Assembly: GCA_024762975.1 (NCBI GenBank)
Contig: JANTGJ010000024.1
Location: 1 to 32,838 of the forward strand
Length of the DNA: 32,838 nucleotides
Source of the DNA: Candidatus Krumholzibacteriia bacterium
GTDB taxonomy: Bacteria; Krumholzibacteriota; Krumholzibacteriia; LZORAL124-64-63
Direction: 5' to 3'
Positions 659 to 32,838 of this stretch are shown here, one piece after another. The first letter of the stretch is position 1, and each line of letters starts with the position of its first letter. The translations under genes and the position numbers were made by a program. The notes under the pieces are model-generated. The model saw only the letters and a list, made by a program, of their open reading frames with translations, did not search any database and was not told the origin of the DNA.

Positions 659-1330
659 ATGAGAAAGACAACAAGACTCGATGCTCGATTTGCCATCCTG
701 GTGTTGACGATTTCCATCTGCGTCCCCGCCCTGGCCTCGGAGACGCTGCTCTTCGAGGACTTCGATGACGGTGTGGCCGATTTTTTCGCACCCACGGATC
801 CCACCTGGCAGGTCGAGAACGGAATGTACCGATGTGACCTGACCGGAGTGGACCGGTTCTCACTGGCCCGGGCAGGCGACTACCAATGGACCGACTATGT
901 CGTGGAATGCGATGTCCGGGTCGAAGGCAGCCTGAACAACGTGCTGGCTTTTCGAATCCGGGATGACTGGGACTTCTATGATATCAACATCATCGCCGCA
1001 CCCTTCAACGCCGTCGTTCTTAGCAAGCGTATCGATAACTCCGACGTCTGGCACGTCGCGGTGCCGTACGACAACGTGGTCGGCGACTGGCATCACATCC
1101 GCGTGGCAGTCGTGGACGATGTGATCGATGTGTCGATCGACGGCAGGAGCGTGATCAACCATCGCGACTCCCTGAACCCCTACCGGACCGGCGGCATCGC
1201 GCCGGTCGGCTATTGTGGAAACGCGATCAATTTCCAGACCGCCTGGTTCGACAACGTAGTCGTCTACACCATCGAGCCGATTGCTACGGATCAGGACAGC
1301 TGGGACGGTGTGAAGGCCCTTTTTCGCTGA
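659..1330 (+). CDS. Secreted protein with LamG / DUF1080-like (concanavalin-like) beta-sandwich; C-terminus SWDGVKALFR
   Basis: Signal peptide MRKTTRLDARFAILVLTISICVPALAS; body (WTDYVVECDVRVEG...NVLAFRIRDDWDFYDI...WHHIRVAVVDDVIDVSIDG) resembles 3-keto-disaccharide hydrolase/LamG-type domains. Confidence 0.8.
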   Translation: MRKTTRLDARFAILVLTISICVPALASETLLFEDFDDGVADFFAPTDPTWQVENGMYRCDLTGVDRFSLARAGDYQWTDYVVECDVRVEGSLNNVLAFRIRDDWDFYDINIIAAPFNAVVLSKRIDNSDVWHVAVPYDNVVGDWHHIRVAVVDDVIDVSIDGRSVINHRDSLNPYRTGGIAPVGYCGNAINFQTAWFDNVVVYTIEPIATDQDSWDGVKALFR

Positions 1331-1353
1331 TCCGGCGAAGGGATGACCACGGG

Positions 1354-1375
1354 GGACCCGGCTCCGGCCGGGTCC
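1354..1375. other. Strong stem-loop downstream of the 659-1330 CDS
   Basis: GGACCCGGC-TCCG-GCCGGGTCC, perfect 9-bp stem with 4-nt loop; no T-tract. Confidence 0.5.
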
Positions 1376-1511
1376 GTTCCGTATCCACACCAAACCACAG
1401 GCCGCCAACGCGGCCCTCTTGCCGATTCTCCGCAAATCTGTGGACACCCGCCGAGTCGTGCCGATACTGTACGCGGACCGGATCCGACACCACCCCACCC
1501 GGAGCGCTACA

Positions 1512-4214
1512 ATGTCCAACCCGATGGAGTTTCCCCTCGAGCTGACCCCCAGTTCCCTGGCCCCCGGCCTGTACACCGCTCGTCTGGCCAATGGCCTGCG
1601 CGTGATCATTCGCCAGGACCCCCGTTCGCCCGTCGCAATCTGCAATTTGTGGGTCCGTGTCGGCAGCAATCGCGAGCCGGAGAAATTGCGGGGCTGGTCG
1701 CACGGCATCGAACACATGCTGTTCAAGGGCACCGAGCGTCGCGCCGAGGGTGACTTTGCCCGGGAAGTGGCCGAAGCCGGAGGCACCACCAATGCCGGAA
1801 CCGGCTACGAAACCACCAACTACCACATCACCGTACCGGCAGCGAAGTTGGACACCGCCATCGACATCCTGTCCGACGTGCTTTTCCACTCGCGCTTCGA
1901 GTCCGGAGCACTCGATGCCGAGCGCAAGGTCCTCGTTCACGAGAACCACATGTACGACGATGTACCCTTTGGATTCGGAGTCACCTGGCGCTGGGGCATG
2001 GAACTGGCCTGCGACACCAGCCCCTACCGCCATCCGATCGGTGGCAAGGATGAGAATCTGCTGGAACGCGATCGCGAAGACATTCTGGCCTTCTGGCGAT
2101 CAGCCTATCGCCCGGACAATATGACTGCGGTGATCGTCGGAGACGTGGATCCGGCTTCGGCCTTCGCCGGGATTTCGGCGCGCTTTGGCCAGGCCACGAA
2201 CCCCACCGAGCCGATCGCCGAGCAGGTGTCCATCGTGCCGTCCCCGCCGGTCGAAGGTTCCCATGACGGCTGCCGCCTGCGAGTCGAGTACGGTGACATC
2301 CAGAAAGCCTACGCGAAGCTGATTTTCCGGGGACCCGGTGAAGCAGATCCGGATCGCGCCGCCCTCGGCGTGGTGCGGCGCGTGCTCTCGGATGGGCGCA
2401 GCAGCCGGCTGTATCGCCACGTGATGGAAGATCTCCAGCTCGTTGACGAATATGCCGTATTCACTGAATCCGGCCCGCGGGAAGGAATCGTGATCCTCGA
2501 CCTGGAAACCGAGCCCGGGAAGATCGCGCCCGCGATCGAAGCCATTACCCGGGTTCTGGGCGAAATGAGTGTGGAGGGGTGCACCGAAGCCGAGCTCGAA
2601 CGTGCCCGCGTTCGGGCTTTGCGTACCCATGCCTTCGGCGGCGAGACCGTTCAAGGCCAGGCTGGTACCCTGGGATACCACGACTCGTTGGGGGACCTGG
2701 GCCGGGCCTTCGATCTGCCCGAGCGCATCGCGGCCGTAACGGCCGCTGATGTGGCCTCCTGCTGTCGCCGCGTATTTCGGGCCGACGACCTCAGCTGCGT
2801 GATCTATCTGCCCGAGAACACCGATGCGAAGCAGCAGAATGTCCCCGCGCAGCCTGAAGAACTGGCAACCCTGATCCGGCCCGCATTGGATTCCCCCCCG
2901 GGCGATCTTCCACCACGGGTTGCCTCGAACGCCGCCGCCAGGACCCCATCGAGATCCAGCTCGCAGCCGGTGGCGGCCCGATTCGAGGAGTACCACCTCG
3001 CCCAGGGGATTCCCGCCTGGATCCGGGTGGATCGAACCGTCCCCGTATTGGCCCTGGGACTGACTTCTCGAGGCGGCGCCATGGGCGAGCCGGCCTCCCG
3101 GTCCGGCCTGGCCTCGCTGATGCAGATGGTTCAGGTCAAGGCCGCCGGCGGGATGGATTCCGAAACCCTGCATGGAAAGCTGGAAAGCGAAGGCGCGTCG
3201 CTGGGCCCCCGGACCGATCGCGACAGCAACGGGCTCTTCCTCAGCTGCCTGGCCAATCGCTGGCAGCGGGCGTTGGAATGGACCGGAGAGGTGATCTGCC
3301 GTCCGGAGTTCGCCCCCGAGGATCTGGACCGTGAACGCCGTCTGGCTCTGCAGGAACTGGCCTCCCACCAGGACAACCCGTTCCAGGCCGCCACACTGAG
3401 GCTGCGTTCGATGATCTATGGCGATCACCCCTGCGGTCGTCCGGTCATCGGCACGGTCGAGAGCCTGCCCTCCTTCGCCCGTGACGATCTCATCGATCGT
3501 CACGATCAGGCCTGGCGCCCGGGAAACCTGCAGATCGTCGCCTCCGGAGATTGCGACCCCGACCAGCTGTTGCGTCAGCTGGAGTCGACGCTCGAAGGTT
3601 TGCCCGAGGGGCCTGCCGACCCCGCCGCCGAACCCTTCCTGATTCCCCGACCCGACGGCATCCTGGCGGAGCGAATGACGCGGCAACAGAACCAGAGCAT
3701 CGTCCTGGCCGCCTGGCCCGGCCCGGAAACCCCCGATCAGGATCGGGTGCCCTACCTGATGCTCAAGGAGCTCCTGAACGGTCAGAGCGGGCGGCTTTTC
3801 GAAGAGCTGCGCAACCGGCGCTCACTCTGCTACAACACCGGCGTGCTACACACCGCCGGTTTCGCGCAGGGAATGTTCCTGGGGTATGTGATGACCTCAC
3901 CGGACACGGAGCAGGCCGCTCTGGAGGAATTGGTGCGCACGCTGCGCGGAATGGCCGAATCGCCGGCGGGCACCGAGGAGTTCGAACGGGCCCGAGCCAA
4001 ATTGCTGGGCAATCTGGTCATCTCGAACCAGTCGAACTCCGCCCGGGCCGCCCGCAGTGACCGGGGGCTGCTGCTGGGCCGTGGCGCCAACGATCTGGAG
4101 ATGCTGCTGGATGCGGTCGCGGAATGTACCGCAGACCAGGTGACGGCACTCGCGGACCGGATCTTCGACGCGGAACATCGTTTCCAGGTCGTTCTGGGTC
4201 CATCCGAAGGCTAG
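1512..4214 (+). CDS. M16-family zinc metalloprotease (two M16 units)
   Basis: Inverted zinc motif HGIEH with downstream glutamates (ERKVLVHENHMYDD); second M16-like half (NGQSGRLFEELRNRRSLCYNTG). ORF track starts at 1419; ATG at 1512 fits the family N-terminus better. Confidence 0.92.
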   Translation: MSNPMEFPLELTPSSLAPGLYTARLANGLRVIIRQDPRSPVAICNLWVRVGSNREPEKLRGWSHGIEHMLFKGTERRAEGDFAREVAEAGGTTNAGTGYETTNYHITVPAAKLDTAIDILSDVLFHSRFESGALDAERKVLVHENHMYDDVPFGFGVTWRWGMELACDTSPYRHPIGGKDENLLERDREDILAFWRSAYRPDNMTAVIVGDVDPASAFAGISARFGQATNPTEPIAEQVSIVPSPPVEGSHDGCRLRVEYGDIQKAYAKLIFRGPGEADPDRAALGVVRRVLSDGRSSRLYRHVMEDLQLVDEYAVFTESGPREGIVILDLETEPGKIAPAIEAITRVLGEMSVEGCTEAELERARVRALRTHAFGGETVQGQAGTLGYHDSLGDLGRAFDLPERIAAVTAADVASCCRRVFRADDLSCVIYLPENTDAKQQNVPAQPEELATLIRPALDSPPGDLPPRVASNAAARTPSRSSSQPVAARFEEYHLAQGIPAWIRVDRTVPVLALGLTSRGGAMGEPASRSGLASLMQMVQVKAAGGMDSETLHGKLESEGASLGPRTDRDSNGLFLSCLANRWQRALEWTGEVICRPEFAPEDLDRERRLALQELASHQDNPFQAATLRLRSMIYGDHPCGRPVIGTVESLPSFARDDLIDRHDQAWRPGNLQIVASGDCDPDQLLRQLESTLEGLPEGPADPAAEPFLIPRPDGILAERMTRQQNQSIVLAAWPGPETPDQDRVPYLMLKELLNGQSGRLFEELRNRRSLCYNTGVLHTAGFAQGMFLGYVMTSPDTEQAALEELVRTLRGMAESPAGTEEFERARAKLLGNLVISNQSNSARAARSDRGLLLGRGANDLEMLLDAVAECTADQVTALADRIFDAEHRFQVVLGPSEG

Positions 4215-4243
4215 AAAAAAGGGAGGGCAACCCATGCCCTCCC
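4215..4243 (-). terminator. Intrinsic terminator for the cupin gene (minus strand)
   Basis: Minus strand: GGGAGGGC-ATGGGTT-GCCCTCCC followed by TTTTTT. Confidence 0.8.
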
Positions 4244-4274
4244 TCGCTTCAAACGCCGGTCCGGCCGTCGCGGC

Positions 4275-4634
4275 TCAGACTCCCAGCGTGTAACGATCCG
4301 GTGCGTCGGACATGTCCACCAGGACCGTCCTCGTACTGAAGTTGGCGCGATGCACCACTCCCTCGGGGATCTCGTAGGAATCTCCGGCCTGATACAGGTT
4401 GGTTTCCCCATCGAATTCCATGGTCATCTCACCCGAAACGACGATTCCGCGCTGGTCACAGTGCGCGTGATCCGGAAAACTAACGCCCTCCTCGAAGACG
4501 AAGAACACGATTTGTTTCTCGTCATCGTGCATACAAAAGCCCTGGACACCATCGACAGGCACCTCGACTTTGGGCAGATTCAGAATTTCGGGAGGAAAAA
4601 GTTCGGTTGGGGATTTGGGACTGGTAGCTTCCAT
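4275..4634 (-). CDS. Cupin-domain protein
   Basis: 119 aa; FPDHAHCDQRGIVVSGEMTMEFDGE...AGDSYEIPEGVVHRANF matches cupin motifs 1 and 2; AGGAGGG Shine-Dalgarno upstream. Confidence 0.85.
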   Translation of the reverse strand: MEATSPKSPTELFPPEILNLPKVEVPVDGVQGFCMHDDEKQIVFFVFEEGVSFPDHAHCDQRGIVVSGEMTMEFDGETNLYQAGDSYEIPEGVVHRANFSTRTVLVDMSDAPDRYTLGV

Positions 4635-4668
4635 ACGTCGGGCCCTCCTTCTTCATTTGAGCTCGCGC

Positions 4669-4701
4669 GGTCGAATGATCGACCAGTCGTTTCAGACGAC
4701 T
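4669..4701 (-). promoter_or_regulatory. Two abutting perfect inverted repeats in the predicted cupin 5' leader
   Basis: Minus strand: AGTCGT-CTGAA-ACGACT directly followed by GGTCGA-TCAT-TCGACC; no spacer between the two dyads. Confidence 0.6.
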
Positions 4702-4719
4702 TCGGCATCCGACTCTCAC

Positions 4720-4747
4720 AGTGTAGCAGAATGTGGATCTTTGGCAA
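4720..4747 (-). promoter_or_regulatory. Candidate sigma70-type promoter of the cupin gene
   Basis: Minus strand TTGCCA (4747-4742), 16-nt spacer, TACACT (4725-4720). Confidence 0.5.
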
Positions 4748-4878
4748 CAACCACCGGACGATCGTGTTCCACCCGGACATTGCCCTCCGCCGCTCGGGAT
4801 TTTTTCGGGCAAATTGCCCTCTTTCCCAGGTGGCGGCAACGCACCCTGCACTTCCTCGATGTTTCTCGTCGAGGCCGG

Positions 4879-5793
4879 TCAGCCGGCCAGATCGAACTCT
4901 GCCAGCACCGGGAAATGATCCGAAGGCAGTGCGCTCGGCCGGTGCTCCATGTCATTGAAATCCACGCGCTCGATGGTCTTGACCGTCAAGTGCGGGCGAA
5001 AGAACACATAGTCGATTCGCCGCGGTCCCAGCAGCATCCTACCGACGCGGTCCCGCAGTCCGAGTCCGCGGAAGGTGCTCCCCGCCGGATCGCCCGTATC
5101 GCGCAACTGCTCCCAGGCATCGTACATCGGCTCGAGGCTGTCCCGGCTCTCGGCCATGGCCCGAATTTCCGGCGAATCGGCCACGGCATTGAAATCTCCC
5201 GTCAGGAAGATCGGAATGTCCTCGCCCAGATCGCGCACACGCCGCGATACGTGTTCCCGGAGAATCAGCGCACTCTTGCGCCGATGGTAGGCATTGACCG
5301 CTTCGAGGTGGGTGGTTCCGAATACGAACGGTTTGCCCGTGGCCAACAACTCGAAGCGATTCCAGGTCACCAGGCGCGGTCGCGTACCGAGGTGGAATTG
5401 CGAAGCGGGGACCTCCGGCGTATCGGAAAGCCACAGGCTTTCGGTCGCATCGTCATCATCCAGCAGGCGCACCCGGTCGCGCCGATAGAACGTCGCGCAG
5501 TACCAGTTGCTCTCGTCGTGGGACATGGCATTGCCCAGATTGCCCTCACCAACGAAGTCGTATTCCGGTAGAAGCTCGGCCAACTCCAGCAACTGGGTGT
5601 AGTTGGCCTCCTGGGTGCCCACAACGTCCGGTCGCAGCGTATCAAAGATCCGCGCGACGTTCCGCTTGCGCAGGCGCCAGGGGTGAGAACGTCGTTTCTT
5701 GGTGGAGGTCAGCAGATTGAATTGCATCACCCTCAGGCTGCTGTTGCTGGAATTGCTGTTCACGATGTTGCTCTCTCCAGTTGTTCTCTTCAC
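4879..5793 (-). CDS. Endonuclease/exonuclease/phosphatase (EEP) family protein
   Basis: LRVMQFNLL...DVVGTQEANYTQ...FGTTHLEA...IFLTGDFNAVADSPE...IDYVFF...PSDHFPVLAEF: ordered EEP motifs including catalytic QE, GDFN and SDH. Confidence 0.9.
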   Translation of the reverse strand: MKRTTGESNIVNSNSSNSSLRVMQFNLLTSTKKRRSHPWRLRKRNVARIFDTLRPDVVGTQEANYTQLLELAELLPEYDFVGEGNLGNAMSHDESNWYCATFYRRDRVRLLDDDDATESLWLSDTPEVPASQFHLGTRPRLVTWNRFELLATGKPFVFGTTHLEAVNAYHRRKSALILREHVSRRVRDLGEDIPIFLTGDFNAVADSPEIRAMAESRDSLEPMYDAWEQLRDTGDPAGSTFRGLGLRDRVGRMLLGPRRIDYVFFRPHLTVKTIERVDFNDMEHRPSALPSDHFPVLAEFDLAG

Positions 5794-5956
5794 CCGCGCC
5801 CCGAGGCGCTGCGGGCGGATATTCCACGGCTTGCCGGACCGTTCGTCGGAACTTCAGTTCCGCACCGATCCTGGCAGGCAAATCCCGTACCGGGTTTTTA
5901 GTTCCCTGGACTTCGATGACCGGGGTAGGGCCGATCGTTTGGGCGAAGGTGGGGTA

Positions 5957-6511
5957 TCAGGAAAATAGATCGAGTTGCGGCGGTTCGCCAGGCAGCTGCA
6001 TCGATTCCAATACCCGAGCTACCCAGCCTACGCGCGTATCGCAGGGAAGTTTCAGGTACTCGAGGCCGAATTCGGCAAGCAACTCGTCCAGCAGGTCGTT
6101 GATCACGGACTGGAATTCGACCGAGGTATCGCGCGTACCGTCGAAGGTCGGTGCGTTGATTACGGGAACCTTGACCAGCAGGTCGTACGTGGACATCCAA
6201 TAGCGGATGAAGGGCTCCAGCTCCGGACGCCGGCCGGCCGCATGGACCATGTAGGCATAGTTGTCCACAACAGCTCGATCACAGACAATGGCGTCGAAAG
6301 CGTCGATCAACTCGATTTCACGGGCCACCTGGGTGTGCAGAATCCAATTCTGCGCCGCGTCGGTCGTGTCGCGATTGATGGGCAGCGGGCAGCCGCGCGC
6401 CACTTCCTTGACCAGATCCACGCTCAGATCCAGCCGTTTGAGGGCCGCCGCCAATTCAAAACAGAGCGTCGTCTTGCCGACGCCGTGGGTGCCGATGAAT
6501 GCAATCTTCAT
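5957..6511 (-). CDS. P-loop AAA-type ATPase / nucleoside-kinase-like protein
   Basis: MKIAFIGTHGVGKTTLCFELAAAL (Walker A GTHGVGKT), CDRAVVDNYAYM; resembles AAA_28/NadR-like ATPases. ATG chosen at 6511. Confidence 0.8.
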   Translation of the reverse strand: MKIAFIGTHGVGKTTLCFELAAALKRLDLSVDLVKEVARGCPLPINRDTTDAAQNWILHTQVAREIELIDAFDAIVCDRAVVDNYAYMVHAAGRRPELEPFIRYWMSTYDLLVKVPVINAPTFDGTRDTSVEFQSVINDLLDELLAEFGLEYLKLPCDTRVGWVARVLESMQLPGEPPQLDLFS

Positions 6512-6657
6512 GGGCGTGAATCTACCCGTTGGCACCAGTGTTGTCCAGCGCCGCACCGACATCCCTGTTGCCGAAGAGATTGGCCCGTCATATGCTTGGC
6601 AGGGGAACCCGCAAATCCGTATTTTTCTGGCTGGAGGGAAACGTCATCGATTGCGCG

Positions 6658-7338
6658 ATGGATCTACGCCGCCTGTTCGTAACCGAGTCACCATTCTACC
6701 GGGGAGCCTTTTTTCTCACTCTGGGAGCCCTGACCATGGTGCTGGGCGCCCTGCTCAGCGCAGCACATCGACTCGAGTGGTGGGAAACCGGTCTGCTCCA
6801 TGGCTACCTGCCCTATTCGCTCTGGACCGGCTCGCTGGTGCTCCTGGCTATCGGTTTCCTGTGGATCGGCAATGCACCTGATTTTTCCCGAGTTGCCCTG
6901 TTGGTATCGCTGCTGCACCTGGCCCAGGCCCTGAACATTTTGATCATCGTCGCAACCAACGGCCACTCCCCGGTCCCACAGGATTCCCTGACGATGGGCC
7001 GCCTGGCATCGTTGCTCATTTTCATTCTCGCGGACCGGGCCTGGGTTGCGCGGGGAACCCGAGTGATCCTGGCGTCGGTCGCGCTGTTGCAGATCGCCAA
7101 GGTCAATCTGCGAGCATTGGAAGTCCTGCCCTCAGAGGAAACTACCGGAATGCTGGCATTGGATACCGCGTTGATCGTGTGGATGGCCGGTGGCTTTTTC
7201 CTGCTTGCCCAATCACTCCTCGCCGGCGAACACCGCTGGGAATTGGCAAAGAATCCCGAGGAAGCGATCGGTTTGGCGGATTTCAACAATCCCGAGCATC
7301 CGTGGAACAAAGCGGAGCAAAAAAAAGAACCGGTTTAG
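6658..7338 (+). CDS. Predicted multi-pass (about six TM) membrane protein of unknown function
   Basis: MDLRRLFVTESPFYRGAFFLTLGALTMVLGALLSAAHRLEWWETG... with six hydrophobic segments; start at 6658 rather than the track start 6529. Confidence 0.75.
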   Translation: MDLRRLFVTESPFYRGAFFLTLGALTMVLGALLSAAHRLEWWETGLLHGYLPYSLWTGSLVLLAIGFLWIGNAPDFSRVALLVSLLHLAQALNILIIVATNGHSPVPQDSLTMGRLASLLIFILADRAWVARGTRVILASVALLQIAKVNLRALEVLPSEETTGMLALDTALIVWMAGGFFLLAQSLLAGEHRWELAKNPEEAIGLADFNNPEHPWNKAEQKKEPV

Positions 7339-7347
7339 CCTGCTTAC

Positions 7348-7377
7348 TTGCTTTTTTCTATACTTTTTTGCTATAAT
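7348..7377 (+). promoter_or_regulatory. Candidate sigma70-type promoter in an AT-rich island
   Basis: TTGCTT (7348-7353), 18-nt spacer, TATAAT (7372-7377), with two T6 tracts (7352-7357, 7364-7369). Confidence 0.65.
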
Positions 7378-7401
7378 AATATCTTCAACGCTTTGGCTAC
7401 G

Positions 7402-7420
7402 GAGGGGCGGAATGCCCCTC
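7402..7420 (+). other. 5' leader hairpin upstream of the 7457 CDS
   Basis: GAGGGGC-GGAAT-GCCCCTC, 7-bp perfect stem between the predicted TSS and ATG 7457. Confidence 0.45.
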
Positions 7421-7456
7421 GCTTCCCGATCGATCGTCCTGCAGGAGTACCATACG

Positions 7457-8065
7457 ATGAACCGCCGCATCTTGATCACCATGCTCGGTCTTGCCCTGAT
7501 TTCCTTCCCGCTGGCGCTCCCGGCCACCGCCGAAGTCCACACTGGCGTCAACGTCCTGGGATTGGCCACAACACCCGATGCCGATGGCAGTTTCGAATGG
7601 GTCGACCAGCCATTGGGCGATTTCGAGGTACACCTTCTGGTCTACGGGTACGACGCCGTTGCCGGCATTGCCGGGTGGGAATGCCGCGTGCTACTCCCGG
7701 CGGGGGTTCTGGTACGAGAGGTGACTCTCGTCGGCAAACCCGATCCGATCAGCGCCAGCGCGACCGATCTCAGCCTGCGTGCGTTTCCGCTCATCCCCCT
7801 GCTGCCCTCCGGGGGCGTAGTTCATCTGGCCACGCTGCATCTGACGCTCACCGACGGGGACAGCGAGAAGGAATTTCGGCTGGCACCGCATTCGACACCC
7901 GAAGTACCGGGCCGTATGAGTTTCGCTCGGGAGACGTCGGGGGCCAACTTGATCGAGTTCAAATGGCCGGGGGGGTGTGAGGACTGCCCGGTGTTTCGGA
8001 TTGTTCCTTCGGCGCAGCCCGTGATTGCCGCCTCCTGGGATGGTGTCAAGAGCCTCTATCGATAG
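7457..8065 (+). CDS. Small secreted protein of unknown function; C-terminus SWDGVKSLYR
   Basis: Signal peptide MNRRILITMLGLALISFPLALPATAE; body VHTGVNVLGLATTPD...IAGWECRVLLPAGV; same tail as the 659 CDS. Track ORF starts upstream at 7190, but ATG 7457 follows the promoter. Confidence 0.8.
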   Translation: MNRRILITMLGLALISFPLALPATAEVHTGVNVLGLATTPDADGSFEWVDQPLGDFEVHLLVYGYDAVAGIAGWECRVLLPAGVLVREVTLVGKPDPISASATDLSLRAFPLIPLLPSGGVVHLATLHLTLTDGDSEKEFRLAPHSTPEVPGRMSFARETSGANLIEFKWPGGCEDCPVFRIVPSAQPVIAASWDGVKSLYR

Positions 8066-17741: not shown

Positions 17742-20700
17742 TCACTTGGCCAGGACCATCTTGGCCGTCTGAGCCGAACGTCCATCGCTCATGCGCGCGA
17801 AGTAGATTCCCGCCGCGGCGGAGCGGCCCTGATCGTCCCGTCCCTTCCAGATCGCGGTATGGGTTCCCGCCTCCACCGTTTCGTCCACCAGAGTCCGGAC
17901 CCGACGGCCGCGGAGATCGAAGATTTCGAGCCGGATATTCCCGGTCCTGGGTACGTCATAGGAGATCCGCGCCAACGGGTTGAACGGATTGGGGGTCACA
18001 TCCCGGATCGCCAGCGTCCGCGGCAACGAGTCCTCCACCGGCGAGGAGCCGCCGCCCTGGGTCCAGACCGGCGCGGTGAACCCGCTGCTGTGGCCGTCCA
18101 CATCGACGGCTACGACGACGTAGTAGCTGTCCTGGGGGGGCGTATCGTCCCAGGTCGTCGTCGGCGGCACGACGCTGCCGACCATCTTGTTCGCCGTCGG
18201 CACAAAGACATCGGCGGTATCGCGATAGACCACGTAGTGATCCAGGTCCGGCGCCGCACTGGCCGTCCACGAGAAGCGATACTGCCCCGCACCCAGGGAT
18301 ACCACCGAGGCGTCCTGCAGCACCGGCGGCGCCACGAAATCCGCATCCGGACCACCGTGGAACCCGATATCCGCCCGGGAGCCATCCGGGTCCAGGCAGC
18401 CGGGATCGTCGATTCCGCGATCCAGACAAGGGGAGTGGACGGCCAGCCCCAGATCACCTCCGGTCAGATCAACCAGCAGCGGATCGACGCTGATGTCCCC
18501 CGGTCCCATGGTCGTGGAGACAAAGTCGCCACCCGCGTTGCTCCAGGCGTCATTGCAGTCGCTCACGGCTCCGGTCCCGGCGCACATCAGGCCCCCACCG
18601 ACATTCGAGACGATGATATTGTTGCGCGCGGTCAGCGCACCGCCGGAGATCATGGCCAAACCGCCGGCCATCGAGCCGCTGTTGGAATCGACCAGACAAT
18701 TCTCGACCGTACCGTTGATATTCATCCCATACAGTCCGCCGCCGAGGTTGGTCGCCGAGTTGCCCACCAGGCGGGTGTTGCGCACCTGTACCGACGCCAG
18801 CGAAGCGAAGACCGCTCCGCCATTGCCCCCCCGGGCGGTGTTGTTCTCCAGTGTGCAATGCACCAGTTCGAGCGTGCCGCCGTCGATACTCAGCGCTCCA
18901 CCTGCGTTCTGGGACCGGTTGCCGCGGATCTCCACGCCGTCCATGCTGACCGTCGCATTCGACGCCCACAACGCTCCGCCGACTCCCGAGCCTCCATTGT
19001 CGACCAGGGATCCACCGACCAGATGGATACTGGCATCTTGCACCATCAATCCGGCGCCGGTAAAACTCGGGAGACTGTCCGAACAGGCATTGCCGGTGAA
19101 CGCACAATTCTCCAGAGTCGCCGCCGCGCCCTCGAGAACGGCCACGGCTCCACCGTTGCTGGCGATATTTCCGGTAAACTCGCAGTCGATGACCCGGGGC
19201 TCGCCACCGAGGAGGCAGAGAGCACCGCCGTATCCGGTAGCAACAGCCGGGTCGGCGCGATTGTTCAGGAACCGGCAGTTGCTGATCGTCGGCGAGCAGT
19301 CACTCGTGTAGATCGCCCCGCCATGATAGCCGGGAACCGGGTTGGAATAATTCGCTCCCACACAGTCCTCGAAAACAAAACCGTCGACGCCACCGATGTC
19401 ACCGCAGCCGGCCAGAAAGCGCAGGCCTCCGTTGCCCGAGCTCAGGCGCGTCGGATACAGATCGGTATCGCGTACGGAGAAGTCGTCGTTCCAACCGCCG
19501 AACAGGCGTACCGGATCGGTCACCGCGATCGCGCCGGCGTAATCTCCCCCGGCGACGTAGACCGAGTCGGTACCGGTACAGGCAACCAGGGCGTCGGCGA
19601 TCGAGTGCGCAGCAGTGGCCGGAGTCTCGTAGGGAGCCGTGTTGCTGCCCAGGGTCGATACGTAGCGAATCTTGTGCCCGACGATCTGGATCCGGTGCTT
19701 CGCGAAATCGTAACCATCCACCGTGCCGGTGCTCGGGAAGACCACCAGGCTGGCGTAGTCGGTGCCTTCGTTGGGAACGAAGAAATCGTAGCTGCCCGAA
19801 TTGGGCACGTTCTCGGCGATCACGAGATCGTGGCAGGCGCCGTCGATTCCCATCCAGATATCCACCGTGGGTGCTGCGGCCCCGGCACTCGTCCAGTTCA
19901 AGGTAACCGTTTCATCGCCGAGCAGGGGGTCCAGACCGAAAGCCGAGTCGATATCGATTTCGACGGGCGGCGGTGTGTAATACATCTGCGTAACGCTGAT
20001 ACCGACATTGCCGGCGCCATACTGAACCATCGCATAGCCGCTCTCACCGAAGCCCGAGCCCCAGCTGTTCTTGATGATCCACGCACCGTTGCCACTGCAG
20101 GCGCGATCATCATAGCCGACGATCAACACCAGATGGTTGGTCCCGTACCCCGGAAGGTTGTAGCAACCCCCGCCGTAATTCTCGAACTCGGGGCTGGCAT
20201 CGATGGCCGTGCAGATCGGCCCCACCTGCAGCGCCTGTTTCATCTGTTCGACATTGTTGGAAATCGACCGGTAGCCCGTGATATGGGCGTAGTCGAAATA
20301 GTTGTCCTCTTCACAGGGAGCGATCGGCGGGTCCGCGCTCAGGTAGGGATGGCAATTTTCCAGCACCCCACCATAGTTCTGCCAGATGTAGTAGGAGGCC
20401 ACGGCCCAGCCGCCGTCGCAACCGGCACCGTAGGGATTGCACGAGATCGACTGCTGCTCCGACAGGTTCACCTCGACTCCGTAGTAGATCTTGATGAAGG
20501 CTTCCATCTCGGCGGTGGCGGCAAAGGCCCAGCATGAACCACAGCTACCCTGGTTCTTGACCGGGGTGATGCCATCGACGTCGCGCCAGTCCAGACTCGT
20601 CGGCAGCGCCTTCTCGACCGGAAGAATCTCCAGGTGGGCCTCCCATTCGCTTTCCCACCCCGCCGGCGGCTTGTACCCCCGCAAATTGTCGCGTTCCTCC

Positions 20701-20900
20701 TGCGTGCGCGTCAGGATGAAGGTGTCGTCCACGTCGAAAGTCCAACCTTCGGTTTTCGCGCGCTCGCGCAATTCGTCCAGCGTCGGACCGTCATAGGCCC
20801 AGGCCGAGCCGGCTACCAGAGTCAGCGCCAGGAGCGCAAGCAGGAACAATCGCGGGGTCCGGAACACCGAACCGCCACCATGGCGTGGATGACTTTGCAT
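17742..20900 (-). CDS. Secreted papain-like (C1) cysteine protease with right-handed beta-helix repeats, FnIII-like and FlgD Ig-like/T9SS-type C-terminal domain
   Basis: Signal peptide ...LFLLALLALTLVAGSAWA; QGSCGSCWAF, NHLVLIVGYD and NSWG retain the Gln/Cys/His/Asn papain residues; about nine GGA[L/V/I]-type rungs; C-terminal TPNPFNPLARISYDVP...IRLEIFDLRGRRVRTLVD...AAGIYFARM...KMVLAK. ATG 20900 preceded by GGGAAAGG. Confidence 0.9.
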   Translation of the reverse strand: MQSHPRHGGGSVFRTPRLFLLALLALTLVAGSAWAYDGPTLDELRERAKTEGWTFDVDDTFILTRTQEERDNLRGYKPPAGWESEWEAHLEILPVEKALPTSLDWRDVDGITPVKNQGSCGSCWAFAATAEMEAFIKIYYGVEVNLSEQQSISCNPYGAGCDGGWAVASYYIWQNYGGVLENCHPYLSADPPIAPCEEDNYFDYAHITGYRSISNNVEQMKQALQVGPICTAIDASPEFENYGGGCYNLPGYGTNHLVLIVGYDDRACSGNGAWIIKNSWGSGFGESGYAMVQYGAGNVGISVTQMYYTPPPVEIDIDSAFGLDPLLGDETVTLNWTSAGAAAPTVDIWMGIDGACHDLVIAENVPNSGSYDFFVPNEGTDYASLVVFPSTGTVDGYDFAKHRIQIVGHKIRYVSTLGSNTAPYETPATAAHSIADALVACTGTDSVYVAGGDYAGAIAVTDPVRLFGGWNDDFSVRDTDLYPTRLSSGNGGLRFLAGCGDIGGVDGFVFEDCVGANYSNPVPGYHGGAIYTSDCSPTISNCRFLNNRADPAVATGYGGALCLLGGEPRVIDCEFTGNIASNGGAVAVLEGAAATLENCAFTGNACSDSLPSFTGAGLMVQDASIHLVGGSLVDNGGSGVGGALWASNATVSMDGVEIRGNRSQNAGGALSIDGGTLELVHCTLENNTARGGNGGAVFASLASVQVRNTRLVGNSATNLGGGLYGMNINGTVENCLVDSNSGSMAGGLAMISGGALTARNNIIVSNVGGGLMCAGTGAVSDCNDAWSNAGGDFVSTTMGPGDISVDPLLVDLTGGDLGLAVHSPCLDRGIDDPGCLDPDGSRADIGFHGGPDADFVAPPVLQDASVVSLGAGQYRFSWTASAAPDLDHYVVYRDTADVFVPTANKMVGSVVPPTTTWDDTPPQDSYYVVVAVDVDGHSSGFTAPVWTQGGGSSPVEDSLPRTLAIRDVTPNPFNPLARISYDVPRTGNIRLEIFDLRGRRVRTLVDETVEAGTHTAIWKGRDDQGRSAAAGIYFARMSDGRSAQTAKMVLAK

Positions 20901-21004
20901 GAATTGCCTTTCCCGAAAATATGGGTGTCTCGGAGGGTGATCGTGCCGACGACAGCGGTTCTCGAATTCAGGCCCGCGCGGGCTTTCCCGATGCGCCAGC
21001 ACTA

Positions 21005-21033
21005 ATGATACCAGAACCAGCCCGGAAACACAA
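21005..21033 (-). promoter_or_regulatory. Candidate sigma70-type promoter of the papain-like protease
   Basis: Minus strand TTGTGT (21033-21028), 17-nt spacer, TATCAT (21010-21005); lies inside the upstream extension of the track ORF, supporting start at 20900. Confidence 0.55.
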
Positions 21034-21075
21034 CGAAACATCGTTTTCATCAAAACCGACAATGCAAATTGGGTC

Positions 21076-21153: not shown

Positions 21154-23673
21154 ATGCCAAGGAACCAACGGGTACTCGCCAGTACCTCGCTCCTGCTACT
21201 GTTTGCCGGAGCGTTTCTTTTCGTCGGTTGTTCCGATGACAATCCGGTCGAAGTCGGTCCGGGGACGAACTTCTCCAACACGGTGGTTATCCATACGGAT
21301 CCCGACGACCTCAATGTGGCTTGGTCGCTGGCCGCTCCCGGTGGGGCCACGATTGCCTCGCAGGGCGATGCGACCCTCGAGAACATGGCCGCGGGCGAGT
21401 ATACGATCAGCTGGCTTCCGAGGGACGGGTGGATCACACCGCGCCCCAATCCGGTGACATTGTCGCTGGGATCGGTCAAGCAGATCGACTTCTCCGGTTT
21501 CTACTTCCCCGAACCGGGCTCGGTATTCATCAACGTGATTCCCGGCAACCTGCAAGCCGAGTGGACTCTGCTCGGTGGCGAAGTCAACTCGTCCACCGGC
21601 GAATTCGAACCGACCGAGGGAATGGAGTGGAACGGCGCCGGTGACACCACCCTCCAGGCGCTTGAACCGGGGATCTACGAGATCATCTGGCAACCGGTCG
21701 ACGGTTGGTACAATCCGGATCAGGAAGGCGATCAGCAGGGCGAGCCGTTGACCGTGCGTTTCACGATGACGATCTTCGGCTTTTCGGCGGCGCGCGAATA
21801 CCGGCAGTCACCCGGTTCGGTTTACATCGATCCGAGGCCTGGAAGCCTGGATGCCTCATGGACGCTGACCGGCAACGGCCGTCTGACCGCGACGGGGCCG
21901 ATCGAGCAGATTATCGAATACACCGGTACGGGACCGACCCTGATTGCCGACGCCTGGCCCGATACGGTGGGCGATGGCGTCTCCTCCTTCGACTACACGA
22001 TCGTCTGGGACGAGGTCAGTGGCTACACCACCCCCGCCTCGGCGGACTACGAAATGAGCCGGGGAATCACGCTGAACGTTGCCGGTGAATACGCGCAGGT
22101 GCCCGGCTCGGCGACCATCGACGCCGAACCCAACAGTCTGGACGCCCCCTGGACCCTGGTCGGTCCGGACGGGATCCAGCGCTCCGGCCTGGGTGATCTC
22201 TCGCTGAGCGACCTGGCACCGGGTGACTATACGCTGATGTGGGGTGAAGTCGTCGCCTGGAAAGCGCCGCAGAACGAGACATTGACCGTAGATCACGGCG
22301 GCAACGTGGTATTTGCCGGCACCTACGCCCCCAGCCTGGTACTGGATCCGCAGCCGGCCGGTTTCTCGGCTCCGTGGCAGATCGCCGGCCCGGGTGGATT
22401 CAGTTTGAGTGGTACCGGATCCTCGGTATTCAACGATCTGGACGCCGGTTCGTATACGGTGACCTGGAACGAAGTCAGCGGCTGGACGGCCCCGGCAGCG
22501 GAGACCGTCACACTCGGTGCGACAGGTATCGTCGTCACTGGCGACTACCAACAAAACGCGATGACACTCTTCGTTCGACCCGAACCGGCCGGACTGGGTG
22601 CGCCCTGGACCATCACCGGGCCGAACGGGTTCAGCGAATCCGGCACGGGGCAGGGTACCGTCGAGGTAACGGACCCCGGTGTCTACACACTGGCCTGGGA
22701 GACTCTGGTCGGCTGGACCCCGCCGGGTCCGACCCTGGCACCTCTGGCTGCCGGGGAAACGATCACTTTCCAGGCCCGCTATCTGGAGACTTTCGACATG
22801 GTCCCCGTATCCGCCGGTGCGTTCGTGATGGGAACGCGCAACGAGTCCTGCTCCAGCCCGGATGAGACGGAGCATGACGTCGAATTGACCAATGACATTC
22901 TGGTACAGGCCACCGAGGTCAGCAACGGCACCTTTGCCCAGGTGTTGACCTGGGCAGTGGACCATGGCTACGCCCGCTACGAGAATGGAAAGATCTACGA
23001 TACACTGGACAACTCCACGATCATGCTGATGAACATGCAGGACCCGGGCCTGAAGATCCGGTACGAGAATGGCGCGTTCGTCTCGGACCGCGAAAACGAT
23101 CCGGTGGTCGAGATTTCCTGGTATGCGGCAGCGGCCTACTGTGACTGGCTCAGTCTCCACGGGGGAATGACCCGTGCCTACGACCATCTGAACTGGCTGT
23201 GCAATGGCTATGATCCGTACAACGCCGTTGGCTATCGCCTGCCGACGGAGGCCGAGTGGGAGTACGCCTGCCGTGCCGGCAGTGAGACCGCCTACGCGAA
23301 CACCGATATCGATGATTTCCGGGAGGACTGCTTTGTCGAAGATCCCGAATTGCTGGACAGCATCTGCTGGTTCTCGGAAAATTCCCAGTCGCAGGCACAT
23401 GAGGTAGCCTCCAAGGGCCCCAACGCCTGGGGATTGTTCGACATGCACGGCAATGTACTCGAGTGGTGCAATGATCGTTACCGCAGCAACTACTGCGGTA
23501 CGAATTGTCCGGAGGAGAATCCGGTCGGACCGTCGCAGGGCGATACGCGAGTCCAGCGCGGCGGGTATTTCTATTCCGACTTTACGAAGGTTCGCTCGGG
23601 AGCCCGCAGTGAATCGAATCCGACCAATGCGTCCGCGGTCTGCGGCTTCCGCGTGGTCATTACCGACCGGTAG
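21154..23673 (+). CDS. Lipoprotein with about six tandem PEGA-like repeats and C-terminal SUMF1/FGE-sulfatase-type domain
   Basis: Lipobox-like LFVGC; repeats of the form PxxLxAxWTLxGPxGxxxSGxGxxxxxDLxPGxYTxxWxEVxGWTxP; C-terminal MVPVSAGAFVMGTRNE...VVEISWYAAAAYCDWLS...YRLPTEAEWEYACRAG...NAWGLFDMHGNVLEWCND...RVQRGGYF...CGFRVV. Confidence 0.9.
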   Translation: MPRNQRVLASTSLLLLFAGAFLFVGCSDDNPVEVGPGTNFSNTVVIHTDPDDLNVAWSLAAPGGATIASQGDATLENMAAGEYTISWLPRDGWITPRPNPVTLSLGSVKQIDFSGFYFPEPGSVFINVIPGNLQAEWTLLGGEVNSSTGEFEPTEGMEWNGAGDTTLQALEPGIYEIIWQPVDGWYNPDQEGDQQGEPLTVRFTMTIFGFSAAREYRQSPGSVYIDPRPGSLDASWTLTGNGRLTATGPIEQIIEYTGTGPTLIADAWPDTVGDGVSSFDYTIVWDEVSGYTTPASADYEMSRGITLNVAGEYAQVPGSATIDAEPNSLDAPWTLVGPDGIQRSGLGDLSLSDLAPGDYTLMWGEVVAWKAPQNETLTVDHGGNVVFAGTYAPSLVLDPQPAGFSAPWQIAGPGGFSLSGTGSSVFNDLDAGSYTVTWNEVSGWTAPAAETVTLGATGIVVTGDYQQNAMTLFVRPEPAGLGAPWTITGPNGFSESGTGQGTVEVTDPGVYTLAWETLVGWTPPGPTLAPLAAGETITFQARYLETFDMVPVSAGAFVMGTRNESCSSPDETEHDVELTNDILVQATEVSNGTFAQVLTWAVDHGYARYENGKIYDTLDNSTIMLMNMQDPGLKIRYENGAFVSDRENDPVVEISWYAAAAYCDWLSLHGGMTRAYDHLNWLCNGYDPYNAVGYRLPTEAEWEYACRAGSETAYANTDIDDFREDCFVEDPELLDSICWFSENSQSQAHEVASKGPNAWGLFDMHGNVLEWCNDRYRSNYCGTNCPEENPVGPSQGDTRVQRGGYFYSDFTKVRSGARSESNPTNASAVCGFRVVITDR

Positions 23674-25886: not shown

Positions 25887-26261
25887 TCAGCGACTGGTGC
25901 TCCCCAGGATGGTCTGGACCGTCGATACCAGTTTCTGCGGGCTGAACGGCTTGGTGATGTAGTCATCAGCACCCGCAGCGATGCCCTCTTCGCGGTCTTC
26001 GCGAGAAGAGCGGGCCGTCAGTAACACGACCGGAATATCCGCCGTGCGGCGATCCTCCTTCAACATCCTGCAGGTCTCGATTCCGCCCTGACCGGGCATC
26101 ATCACATCCAGGATCACCAGGTCGGGCGCTTCGTCAACAGCCATGGTAAAGGCATCCTCGCCGTTGTGTGCGGCGATCACGTCGAAGCCCTCGGCGTGCA
26201 GGCTGAAGTCGAGGATGTGGCGGATGTTGTGTTCGTCGTCGGCGATCAGGACCTTCAGCAC
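25887..26261 (-). CDS. Stand-alone response regulator receiver (CheY-like)
   Basis: MLKVLIADDEHNIRHILDFSL...DLVILDVMMPG...VLLTAR...GADDYITKPF: intact DD, phospho-Asp, T and K. Confidence 0.93.
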   Translation of the reverse strand: MLKVLIADDEHNIRHILDFSLHAEGFDVIAAHNGEDAFTMAVDEAPDLVILDVMMPGQGGIETCRMLKEDRRTADIPVVLLTARSSREDREEGIAAGADDYITKPFSPQKLVSTVQTILGSTSR

Positions 26262-26304
26262 GATGCTTCCTCCAGCGGCGATACGTTACTTTGGCACAGG
26301 TTCT

Positions 26305-29004
26305 CTAGACCGGAGCCTGTACCTGTTTCGGTTTGTAGGCGAGCGGGCGAACCCGCTCGATGCTCTGGTTCTCGCGAGCCTGCAGTTCCTCGATTCGCGT
26401 GGCCCGCGCACGGGTTTCTTCCAGGAAATGCGGTGTCAGGCGTGGACAGAATTCACGGCCCACTCCCTGTTCGATCTGCTGCAACGCCCTACTCAGACTG
26501 TGGGCCTGTCGCCAGGGTCGCCGAGCGAGCAGGGCGGCCAACGTATCGGCCAGACGGATCAGACGCGAACCCAGCGGAATCGCCTCGCCGCCCAACCCCT
26601 CGGGATAGCCGGAGCCGTCGCAGTTCTCATGGTGGTGCAGAATCAACTGACGAACCTTCGACGAGGGACGCAGCGGCGCCAGCAGATCCAAGCCTACGCT
26701 CACGTGGCGCTGCATGTCCCGGCGCTCGGAATCACTCAGTTTCCCGGCCTTGTTCAGATACTGGCGCGGTACAGCGCTGAGCCCGACGTCATAGAACTGC
26801 AAGGCGAAGGCCAGGTCCACCATCTCGTGCTCGGGAAGCCCGGCACAACGACCGGCGGCGAGGCAGATCTCCTGGCACAACGCCGCCAGGCTTTCGTGCC
26901 TCAGCTGGCCCACGGCCGTGGTGGTCCGCAAGGACGAGCGCACCTCTTTCAGGTCCTCGGTCATCTCCCGCCAGCGGTGGTGCCGATCCAGCAGTTCGGC
27001 AATGACCGGCGACAACGACTCGAGGAAGAGCCGGTCGTCATCATCCAACGAAGTGCCATCGACCTTGTTGTTCACCGAGACGACCCCGATCACCCGATTC
27101 TCATGCAACACAGGTGCGCACAGCAGGGAAGGAGTCGAGTAGCGCGGTTCGTTCACCTCGACGGAAACCGGCGCATCACGGGTGACATCGGCCAACAGCA
27201 GGGTCTTGCGCGTGGCCCAGACCTGACCGGCGAAACCGGCGCCCCGAGCCACGACGGCACCCTGGACCACGGCCTCGGGCAAACCGATCGCGGCGCGGAT
27301 GGTCAGAACGTCCCGCTCGTGGTCAGGTACCATCAGGGTCGCTGTTTGCACGCCGAGACTCTCGCTGACCCAGTACATCAGGCGTTGGACAAATTCGCCC
27401 TCAGCCAGCGCGGAGCCGGTCGGTTCACTTTCGGTCGGCTGCAACACGGCCGGCCTGCGCGGCAAGAGCACCGTGAAACGAGCACCCGTGGGCTCGAGAT
27501 TCTCGGCCCAGATCCGGCCATCATGGTGGTTGACGATGTCCTGGCAGATGGCCAGACCGACGCCCTGTCCGTTGTGCTCCCGGGTAGCTGAGCCATCGAC
27601 CTGATAGAACTCGTTGAAAATCTCGGAAAGCTGATCTTCGGGAATGCCGATGCCGGTGTCTTCGACCATCAGGCTGACTGCCGTTCCGGTCTCCTGCAGG
27701 CTGAGCGTAACCTGACCACCGGTGGGCGTGAACTTGAAGGCATTCCCCAGCAGGTGACCGATCAACTGTTTCAGCAACAGGGAATCGACGGGCAGCAGGA
27801 TCTTTTCGGCGGAGGTCAACAGGCGAAAGCGTACATCGGATCCGATGGCGCGACTGCGCCAGGATTCTTCGAGATGGCGAACGATCTGCACCAGGTCAGT
27901 CTCGACCTGCACCATCGCCGGCGGCCCGTTGCCGATGCGGTTCAGGTCCAGGATGTCGTTGATCACTGCCGTCAGTTTGTTGCTCTCGGTGTTGATCACT
28001 TTCAGGAACTCGCCGCGCGCCTCGTCGGTCATCGTTCCCATATTCTGTTGCAGCAGTTCAGTGTAGGCTGATATCGAGGTCAGGGGAGTACGCAGTTCAT
28101 GCGAGACATTGGCCACGAAATTGGCCTTCATGTCGCTCAGGCTGGCCAGCTTTTTCGAGGCATCGGAAAGCTCGGCGTTGTTGCGCGCCAGTCGTCCATA
28201 GACCAGCGAGGATTCGACCGCGGTATTGACCTGCTGGACCAGAAATTCGAGTTGCCGAATCGCCACCAGATCCGGAACGTGGCCGTCCAGGGGATCGTCG
28301 AGGCTGAAATAGCCGTTCAGGTCGCCGGTGCGCGAGACCAGGGGGGAGATCATCAACACGTCGACGTCCCAGGGCGACCCGGGATCCAGCTGTACGGCGA
28401 CATCCTCGGCGGTATCCGCAGCTCGGACCAGGAACGAGGACGAGTAGCGCTCGCGCGAGGTATTCATCTGCTCGTATTCGTCCCGCGAGACCTGGATGCC
28501 GATCAGGTCCGCCTTGCTTTCCTCGGGAATTCCGGCGAACGCACGCGCCTCGAACGCCTGCGTACTTTCGGACCAGAGATAGAGGATCACTTTCCGGAAA
28601 CCACCGATGCTCTCGACGGCGGCCGTGACCTGCTCCAGCAGTTCCGCCTGATTGTGGGTCGAGTTCATGCGCGCCGAAACCGCCAGGATGCGTTCCAGCG
28701 TACGACTTCGCCGACGGAGATCCTCGGCATGGCTCCGCTCATCTTCGAGGCTCTCACGCTGCTGTCGAGAGTGCTCAAGCAGTCGCTGCAGTTCCTGCTC
28801 CAGGCCATGCTGGCGAGTCTGCGCTTCATCCAATCTGCGGCGATCGTTCGACCGGTGCACAGCCAGTCGCAAACCGAACAGGCCCACCCCCACGCCGCCC
28901 AGCAGCGCCAGCGCCAGTGTCAGCCCCAACGGGGCGGACAGCGGTCCGGCGGCATCGAGCAATGCCAGCGGCAGGATCCGTCCGATTTCGATCGCTCCGA
29001 TCAA
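26305..29004 (-). CDS. Membrane-anchored sensor histidine kinase fused to GAF and C-terminal variant HD-GYP domain
   Basis: N-terminal TM/coiled coil; H box FVANVSHELRTPLTSISAY; N box LLGNAFKFTP; G1 DTGIGIPED; G2 GQGVGLAIC; GAF-like region; C-terminal LQFYDVGLSAVP...RHVSVG...LHHHENCDGSGYPEGLGGEAIPLGSRLIRLADT. Confidence 0.9.
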   Translation of the reverse strand: MIGAIEIGRILPLALLDAAGPLSAPLGLTLALALLGGVGVGLFGLRLAVHRSNDRRRLDEAQTRQHGLEQELQRLLEHSRQQRESLEDERSHAEDLRRRSRTLERILAVSARMNSTHNQAELLEQVTAAVESIGGFRKVILYLWSESTQAFEARAFAGIPEESKADLIGIQVSRDEYEQMNTSRERYSSSFLVRAADTAEDVAVQLDPGSPWDVDVLMISPLVSRTGDLNGYFSLDDPLDGHVPDLVAIRQLEFLVQQVNTAVESSLVYGRLARNNAELSDASKKLASLSDMKANFVANVSHELRTPLTSISAYTELLQQNMGTMTDEARGEFLKVINTESNKLTAVINDILDLNRIGNGPPAMVQVETDLVQIVRHLEESWRSRAIGSDVRFRLLTSAEKILLPVDSLLLKQLIGHLLGNAFKFTPTGGQVTLSLQETGTAVSLMVEDTGIGIPEDQLSEIFNEFYQVDGSATREHNGQGVGLAICQDIVNHHDGRIWAENLEPTGARFTVLLPRRPAVLQPTESEPTGSALAEGEFVQRLMYWVSESLGVQTATLMVPDHERDVLTIRAAIGLPEAVVQGAVVARGAGFAGQVWATRKTLLLADVTRDAPVSVEVNEPRYSTPSLLCAPVLHENRVIGVVSVNNKVDGTSLDDDDRLFLESLSPVIAELLDRHHRWREMTEDLKEVRSSLRTTTAVGQLRHESLAALCQEICLAAGRCAGLPEHEMVDLAFALQFYDVGLSAVPRQYLNKAGKLSDSERRDMQRHVSVGLDLLAPLRPSSKVRQLILHHHENCDGSGYPEGLGGEAIPLGSRLIRLADTLAALLARRPWRQAHSLSRALQQIEQGVGREFCPRLTPHFLEETRARATRIEELQARENQSIERVRPLAYKPKQVQAPV

Positions 29005-29013
29005 TCCCTACTC

Positions 29014-29403
29014 CTACGAGGCGTTCGTCCGCGTCTCGAGCATCTTGCCCACGCGTTCGACGAGTTTGGCGATATTGAACGGCTTGCGCATGAAGAGATT
29101 CGCTCCGGCTTGCTTCATCCGGGCCCGGGTTTCTTCGTCCGCCTTGGCCGAAAGGGCTACAATCAGCGTACCGGTGTAGGCCTGGTTGCGGCGGATCAGC
29201 CGAGTCGTGTCCACCCCGTCCAGCTTGGGCATCATGATATCCATGATCACCACATTCGGCCGGAAGTTGGCCATCCGATTCATGCAGTCGATCCCGTTGT
29301 CGGCCAGCGAGACCTGGAAGCCCTCCTGCTCGAACGTCTGCGCCAGCAGCGTCGTGATGGGCTTTTCATCGTCCACGATGAGAATGCGCGGCATCCGGTT
29401 CAT
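29014..29403 (-). CDS. Stand-alone response regulator receiver (CheY-like)
   Basis: MPRILIVDDEKPITTLLAQTF...NVVIMDIMMPKLDG...IVALSAKAD...GANLFMRKPF. Confidence 0.93.
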   Translation of the reverse strand: MNRMPRILIVDDEKPITTLLAQTFEQEGFQVSLADNGIDCMNRMANFRPNVVIMDIMMPKLDGVDTTRLIRRNQAYTGTLIVALSAKADEETRARMKQAGANLFMRKPFNIAKLVERVGKMLETRTNAS

Positions 29404-31716: not shown

Positions 31717-31729
31717 CGGGACCTTCCGC

Positions 31730-32722: not shown

Positions 32723-32838
32723 TACTTCCCTTTTCGACAATACATGGCTGCGAGTCCGCCCCGGGACAGGACGGCTGTTCATCTTATGATCGCAAGCTAT
32801 GTGCCATGGTTGAGCCCAAAATGGGGAAAAGACGGTGG

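Follow-up and report, generated by a model that had tools for sequence, protein, structure and literature searches.

C-terminal sorting tags have more than once pointed the way to new processing enzymes and secretion routes, as with exosortase, rhombosortase, myxosortase and the T9SS, the last of which is best known in Bacteroidota. The described signals closest to the element considered here are the T9SS CTDs of type A (TIGR04183/PF18962), type B (TIGR04131) and type C, which are likewise C-terminal signals on Sec-exported extracellular proteins, and which a 2023 review described as restricted to Bacteroidota. In P. gingivalis, the last 22 residues of HBP35 are enough for secretion of GFP via the T9SS, and T9SS CTDs depend on a conserved lysine and on their final residues and accept C-terminal extensions (PMC10202324, PMC11285876). 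Specialised shuttles exist for particular CTD types (PMC12618676). The PEP-CTERM/exosortase, GlyGly-CTERM/rhombosortase, MYXO-CTERM/myxosortase and LPXTG/sortase systems also use short, strongly conserved C-terminal tags, which in each genome mark dozens of unrelated exported proteins; these tags have a restricted taxonomic range and were discovered by similar reasoning (PMC1569441, PMC3237569, PMC11980579).

The window analysed here, a stretch of 32,838 nucleotides from a Candidatus Krumholzibacteriia bacterium, encodes two secreted proteins with nearly the same ending. The open reading frame of protein 1 (659..1330, + strand; 223 aa) specifies a signal peptide, a LamG/3-keto-disaccharide-hydrolase-like beta body with a weak Pfam match (PF06439, 1.4e-06) and a C-terminal tail with the signature IATDQDSWDGVKALFR (1280..1327, +), whose core SWDGVKALFR occupies 1298-1327 and is followed by the stop codon TGA at 1328-1330. 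Protein 2 (7457..8065, +; 202 aa) has a signal peptide, a beta-rich body that matches no Pfam or NCBIfam family and a tail with the signature QPVIAASWDGVKSLYR (8015..8062, +), the core of which, SWDGVKSLYR, lies at 8033-8062 before the stop codon TAG at 8063-8065. Both signatures fit the logo of 201 tails described below. The original prediction was of a near-identical C-terminal decapeptide on two signal-peptide proteins with unrelated bodies. The frames and coordinates were verified, and an N-terminal signal peptide was found on each protein. BLASTP alignment of the two is confined to the tail and at most a few dozen residues before the end, and the bodies belong to different homology clusters, so that full-length homology is not the case. 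Homologues of protein 1 keep the tail or a Y-variant of it in genomes G003 and G012, and have a drifted form in G030.

Could the resemblance be a coincidence, or reflect common descent through a recent duplication of the two genes? Taken by itself, the small sample first seen would allow this. We therefore turn to counts of the DNA pattern W..[hydrophobic]K.L[YF]R-stop, with the reversed pattern as control. The 3.8-Mb genome to which the window belongs (G000) has 15 matches and no reversed ones, the sum over 38 genomes of the class is 443 against 2, and the pattern is present in 70 of 80 genomes of the phylum; the further C-terminal matches that had been looked for in the genome and its relatives are thus abundant. 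These numbers, the 88 unrelated body clusters on which the tail is found (see below) and the diverged synonymous codons of the two window tails make coincidence or duplication exceedingly improbable, and duplication of one gene is ruled out by the unrelated bodies. The codon divergence and the many unrelated bodies also uphold the earlier suggestion of selection on the peptide.

The motif is also a feature of protein ends. When the stop is not required, there are 532 core matches in the 38 genomes, and 443 of these run straight into a stop-like codon; at 20 other places, from families whose motif does not abut a stop, reading in full placed the motif 1-11 residues from the C-terminus in every case (e.g., LYRD, LYRGP and LYRTSPR). 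The motif is therefore not equally frequent internally. In the window's own genome, a looser pattern gives 25 matches against 5 in the control, about 23 of them near-terminal, including variants such as LYSN, LYNN, LFH, LYQ and SIYR. The original prediction accordingly understated the extent of the family, which has about 23 tail proteins in this genome alone once variants are counted. Because the motif itself served as the search seed, all counts of drifted forms are lower bounds; most of the genomes scanned are MAGs, and gene calls were simple.

In all, 201 distinct tail proteins were collected, with bodies in 88 unrelated clusters (E < 1e-3), 61 of them singletons. Their common signature, of about 16 residues, is V-[PA]-[TV]-E-x-x-[ST]-W-G-x-V-K-[AS]-L-Y-R. 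In the logo aligned on W, the columns before it read, in percent, V51/T20, P39/A25, T29/V29, E46/D17, x, x and S45/T32, followed by W, G75/S14/D7, x, V73/I15/L10, K, A44/S35, L85, Y84/F14 and R92, where the W, K, L, Y/F and R columns are largely fixed by the searches and the remaining ones are free. The free columns are strong as well, with V at -7, P/A at -6, E/D at -4, S/T at -1, G at +1, V at +3 and A/S at +5. The motif had been described as exactly C-terminal, which is the case in 172 of the 201 tails and does not extend to the others, since anywhere from 0 to 11 extra residues occur. Similarly, the core motif proposed at first is conserved, yet its last residue, the W and the L differ between some genera.

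A simple and crude hydrophobicity criterion assigns a signal peptide to 117 of 128 full-length tail proteins. The enrichment proposed as a check is evident within the same loci, where 57 of 68 tail ORFs have one, compared with 73 of 352 other ORFs of at least 150 aa. The Pfam domains of the bodies are a scattered set of extracellular types (beta-helix, PPC, NIDO, CBM20, DUF642 and GEVED). Tail proteins are often tandem paralogues, encoded by two or three adjacent genes (loci L046, L059, L068, L071, L079, L113 and L121). In L113 and L226, the N-termini of the tail proteins resemble lipoprotein signals (LAGCS and LCCGEDD), a poor fit to simple release into the medium. It had also been suggested that a putative processing enzyme might co-occur with the tail. 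The neighbourhoods of the tail genes do not bear this out, as neither a processing enzyme nor any other gene family recurs beside them in 78 sequences.

An unbiased view is given by a relative in the same family, G013, of which a 2.15-Mb contig (72,000 bases of it read N) was scanned with a tail HMM trained on other loci, G013 being left out. The scan gave 18 hits above 8 bits, all of them 0-4 residues from the C-terminus; the next-best hit scored 3.9 bits, and internal chance hits lie below this gap. Signal peptides are found on 14 of the 18 tail proteins and on 173 of 1238 genes (Fisher p ~1e-9), and the four tail proteins that fail the test have apparently over-extended starts. On this contig, the T9SS type A CTD occurs on 47 genes (median 853 aa), the tail on 18 (median 337 aa) and both on none. 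The last tail residue in the genus of G013 is R, D, N or E. This variability, together with the 1-11 extra residues seen elsewhere, rules out a requirement for an exact C-terminal carboxylate.

The taxonomic range of the tail is narrow. A scan of 85,462 GTDB species for the strict form found 77 stretches. Their titles name Candidatus Krumholzibacteria/Krumholzibacteriota, Eisenbacteria, Latescibacterota and unnamed bacteria, along with a small number of MAGs labelled as Gemmatimonad, Fibrobacter or Verrucomicrobia, so the strict tail is nearly confined to Krumholzibacteriota, Eisenbacteria and allied MAGs, mostly uncultured. Three of the stretches, titled Fibrobacter sp. IMS_BF (L088), Gemmatimonas sp. 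SW.020 (L060) and Latescibacterota bin260 (L086), have the same contig coordinates as genomes G006, G014 and G027, which are of the window's own phylum (the Fibrobacter- and Gemmatimonas-labelled MAGs even of its own family), and therefore these titles look mislabelled or outdated. In Bacteroidota, the scan of these species gave no real match: the one hit, in Porphyromonas gingivicanis, is a chance 10-codon frame.

How does the tail compare with the C-terminal tags already known? CTERM- and LPXTG-type tags consist of a motif, a transmembrane helix and a basic cluster; the tail, in contrast, is free of any hydrophobic helix and sits at the C-terminus or close to it. PEP-, GlyGly- or MYXO-CTERM assignment calls for a transmembrane helix and basic cluster after the motif, and only 0-11 residues follow the tail motif. 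The logo of the 201 tails contains no LPxTG-like motif and no hydrophobic stretch, and the tail has neither a transmembrane helix nor an Ig-like fold. T7SS or T1SS cargo would be without an N-terminal Sec signal peptide, and the tail proteins have one. Among the 25 NCBIfam families most matched by 90 tail proteins, there are no known C-terminal signals, TIGR04183 included, and TIGR04183 matches neither of the two window proteins. Two matches to the PEP-CTERM family PepA were found among the tail proteins. The choice-of-anchor families C, F, J and X, which match 4 of the 90 proteins scanned, represent extracellular bodies with lineage-dependent C-terminal anchors; on the tail proteins, the C-terminal signal has no model.

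A known CTERM, LPXTG or T9SS signal is thus ruled out as the identity of the tail, since no model fits. This agrees with the original prediction, which could match the peptide to no named signal. Literature searches on the T9SS in these phyla, on choice-of-anchor proteins and on the tail itself yielded no description of it. The tail, matching no named CTERM, Pfam or NCBIfam signal, looks like an undescribed element.

The T9SS CTDs nevertheless deserve a closer comparison. The differences are considerable: the tail has 16 residues against 70-100 for the CTDs, it lacks their Ig-like fold, the CTD models do not match it, and it is centred on a tryptophan in a predicted helix rather than a beta-strand; the strict scan, moreover, finds no tail in Bacteroidota. 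The HBP35 minimal signal is a fragment of a type A CTD with motifs D and E, whereas the tail is a complete natural signal of unrelated sequence. On the other hand, both the tail and the CTDs have a conserved lysine near the end and tolerate C-terminal additions (PMC10202324, PMC11285876), and the type A CTD is borne by homologues of the tail-protein bodies in genomes that also have the tail, nearly all of which match SprA.

The last point is best seen with protein 2. Its body, with the tail removed, was used as a query against the 38 genomes of the class and has homologues in 19 of them. The short homologues, of 199-390 aa, carry at the end the tail or drifted forms of it, namely SWDLVKSLYQ, TLGGIKTLFR, DWDQVKALYR, SFDNVKALYR, SMGKLKASYR, SFGGVKARF and SWGSVKAMFN. 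The long ones with a complete end, nearly all above 490 aa, finish in ...GRDDxGRxVASGxYxxRL...KIMLLK, and all ten of the long ends scanned match TIGR04183, nine of them over the cut-off. Therefore, a single domain family takes either signal, and no protein bearing both was found. It is this alternation of tail and type A CTD on the same body, read from the protein sequences, that gives a sorting role its strongest support.

Both kinds of C-terminal signal occur within the window itself. A secreted protein of the C1A papain family (17742..21062, - strand; Peptidase_C1 1.2e-49), which serves as a comparator, has a T9SS type A/FlgD-Ig end at about residues 1020-1106 (FlgD_ig 1.7e-07; TIGR04183 28.5 bits, cut-off 23). 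The gene at 21154-23673 (+) specifies another secreted protein, which contains repeated beta domains and, at its C-terminus, an FGE-sulfatase domain; its end, read from the sequence, is neither a tail nor a type A CTD. Further on, at 25887-32782 (-), response-regulator and sensor-kinase genes alternate, the last with a GGDEF-like end, as judged from the translations.

The machinery to read type A CTDs appears to be in place. A match to SprA (TIGR04189) is present in every one of the 38 genomes of the class and exceeds the cut-off in 36; 14 control genomes are silent. The window's own genome has 108 type A CTDs; it and its 37 relatives have SprA and dozens to more than 100 type A CTDs per genome. 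Outside the class, SprA is found in 17 of the 18 genomes reached from motif loci (13 over the cut-off), a set that includes Porphyromonas gingivicanis, whose own motif hit is due to chance. The only real tail carrier outside the class with no SprA match is G082 (L061), a Verrucomicrobia-labelled MAG with 8 tail-pattern matches, which is mislabelled, incomplete or a real exception. In G011 and G096, the SprA match is only weak. Apart from G082 and from G011/G096, most tail proteins thus combine a Sec signal peptide, a C-terminal signal and a genome with SprA, as T9SS substrates do. It could be argued, against the T9SS, that some genomes have SprA and no tail. This argument mostly falls away because the genomes concerned carry drifted tails: seemingly tail-less genomes have SWGAIKSMYR or SWGSIKSIYR on signal-peptide proteins. 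Only G037 is left, where SprA and type A tails are present and the tail was not found.

Structure prediction gives some indication of how the tail may be presented. In an AF2 model of a ten-member Eisenbacteria family, A2, the body is beta-rich, in blocks mostly of pLDDT 65-89, and the invariant tail (the last 12 residues) has a pLDDT below 50, with a helix at 244-251 outside any sandwich. A single-sequence model of window protein 1 is poor (mean pLDDT 40) and also has a helix at the tail. In the A2 model, then, the tail is predicted not to be packed against its own body, and because its sequence is invariant and yet unpacked, it would most simply be read in trans.

With its short helix at the end of a flexible linker and its many unrelated bodies, the tail might also act in docking, collecting small extracellular proteins on a surface scaffold or in an assembly, as encapsulin cargo peptides and dockerins do, with secretion achieved otherwise. 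A fold search with the A2 body indeed gave cohesin- and CBM-like beta-sandwich matches, but these are weak, with TM-scores of about 0.3; the bodies vary widely, the analysis identified no scaffold protein, and targeting accounts better than assembly for the exchange with a secretion CTD. We consider docking improbable. The exactly C-terminal position in 172 of 201 tails and the hydrophobic residues exposed near the end might instead suggest an ssrA-like tag outside the cytoplasm, by which a protease that binds C-termini would recognise periplasmic proteins for quality control or turnover. Such proteases, however, prefer small or hydrophobic ends, and arginine is the usual last residue of the tail, which tolerates up to 11 more; it is also gene-encoded on dozens of normal-looking proteins and replaces a secretion CTD in homologues. 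A role in turnover is very improbable.

The sequence comparisons make us fairly confident that the tail acts in targeting, as a short C-terminal signal. The testable parts of the original, more general proposal of a sorting, anchoring or processing tag hold, namely the unrelated bodies, the signal peptides and the C-terminal position. We propose that Sec would first export the tail proteins to the periplasm, where the flexible linker V-[PA]-[TV]-E/D-x-x would expose the 9 residues W-G-x-V-K-[AS]-L-Y-R as a helical, probably amphipathic element. Once the body has folded, an envelope machine would read this element. The tail would serve mainly small proteins (~200-400 aa), and the ~80-residue type A CTD would do the same job for large ones in the same cells. 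The reader would most likely be the T9SS, with the help of a shuttle or adaptor specific to the clade, and the protein would then end up outside the outer membrane. What we infer from these data is recognition in trans, a destination at the surface, reading by the T9SS, the involvement of a shuttle and what becomes of the tail.

Taken as a whole, this reading of a targeting signal for periplasmic proteins, probably read by the T9SS through such a shuttle and leading to the surface, has in our judgement an even chance of being right. The T9SS link is the likeliest one on the grounds of SprA co-occurrence, exchange with the type A CTD and HBP35-type precedents. T9SS reading would need a clade-specific reader, since Bacteroidota gave no real match in the strict scan, and a clade-specific shuttle is plausible given that specialised shuttles are known for CTD types. 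A physical tie between tail and T9SS was not seen in the gene neighbourhoods: there is no tail gene in the SprA neighbourhood of G013, nor does a companion family recur beside the tail genes.

The main rival, less likely in our view but a serious one, is that a receptor in the outer membrane or an export machine, distinct from the T9SS and as yet undiscovered, reads the tail, the alternation with type A CTDs then representing two parallel routes. The tail is unlike every T9SS signal model, it is clade-specific when the T9SS is not, one tail-positive MAG has no SprA match, some tail proteins are lipoprotein-like, and the missing transmembrane helix sets it apart from anchors of the PEP-CTERM, GlyGly-CTERM or LPXTG type. 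Yet the absence of any candidate or recurring family beside the tail genes, the presence of SprA in nearly all tail-bearing genomes and the service of one domain family by both signals speak against a separate receptor. In its most specific form, the idea is that tail proteins are cargo for a system, so far undescribed, that exports across the outer membrane or anchors at the surface; limited to Krumholzibacteriota, Eisenbacteria and relatives, it would work beside the T9SS in the same cells and read a 9-residue helix and not a folded domain. We regard this as a tentative proposal, less likely than not.

Since NCBI-style annotation has no model for the tail, the ends of these proteins are currently unnamed. 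The tail lets the exported tail proteins of hardly cultured phyla be listed from sequence alone. With the same domains bearing either this 16-residue signal or the 80-residue type A CTD, the tail either makes the minimal feature that the T9SS reads testable or indicates a new machine.
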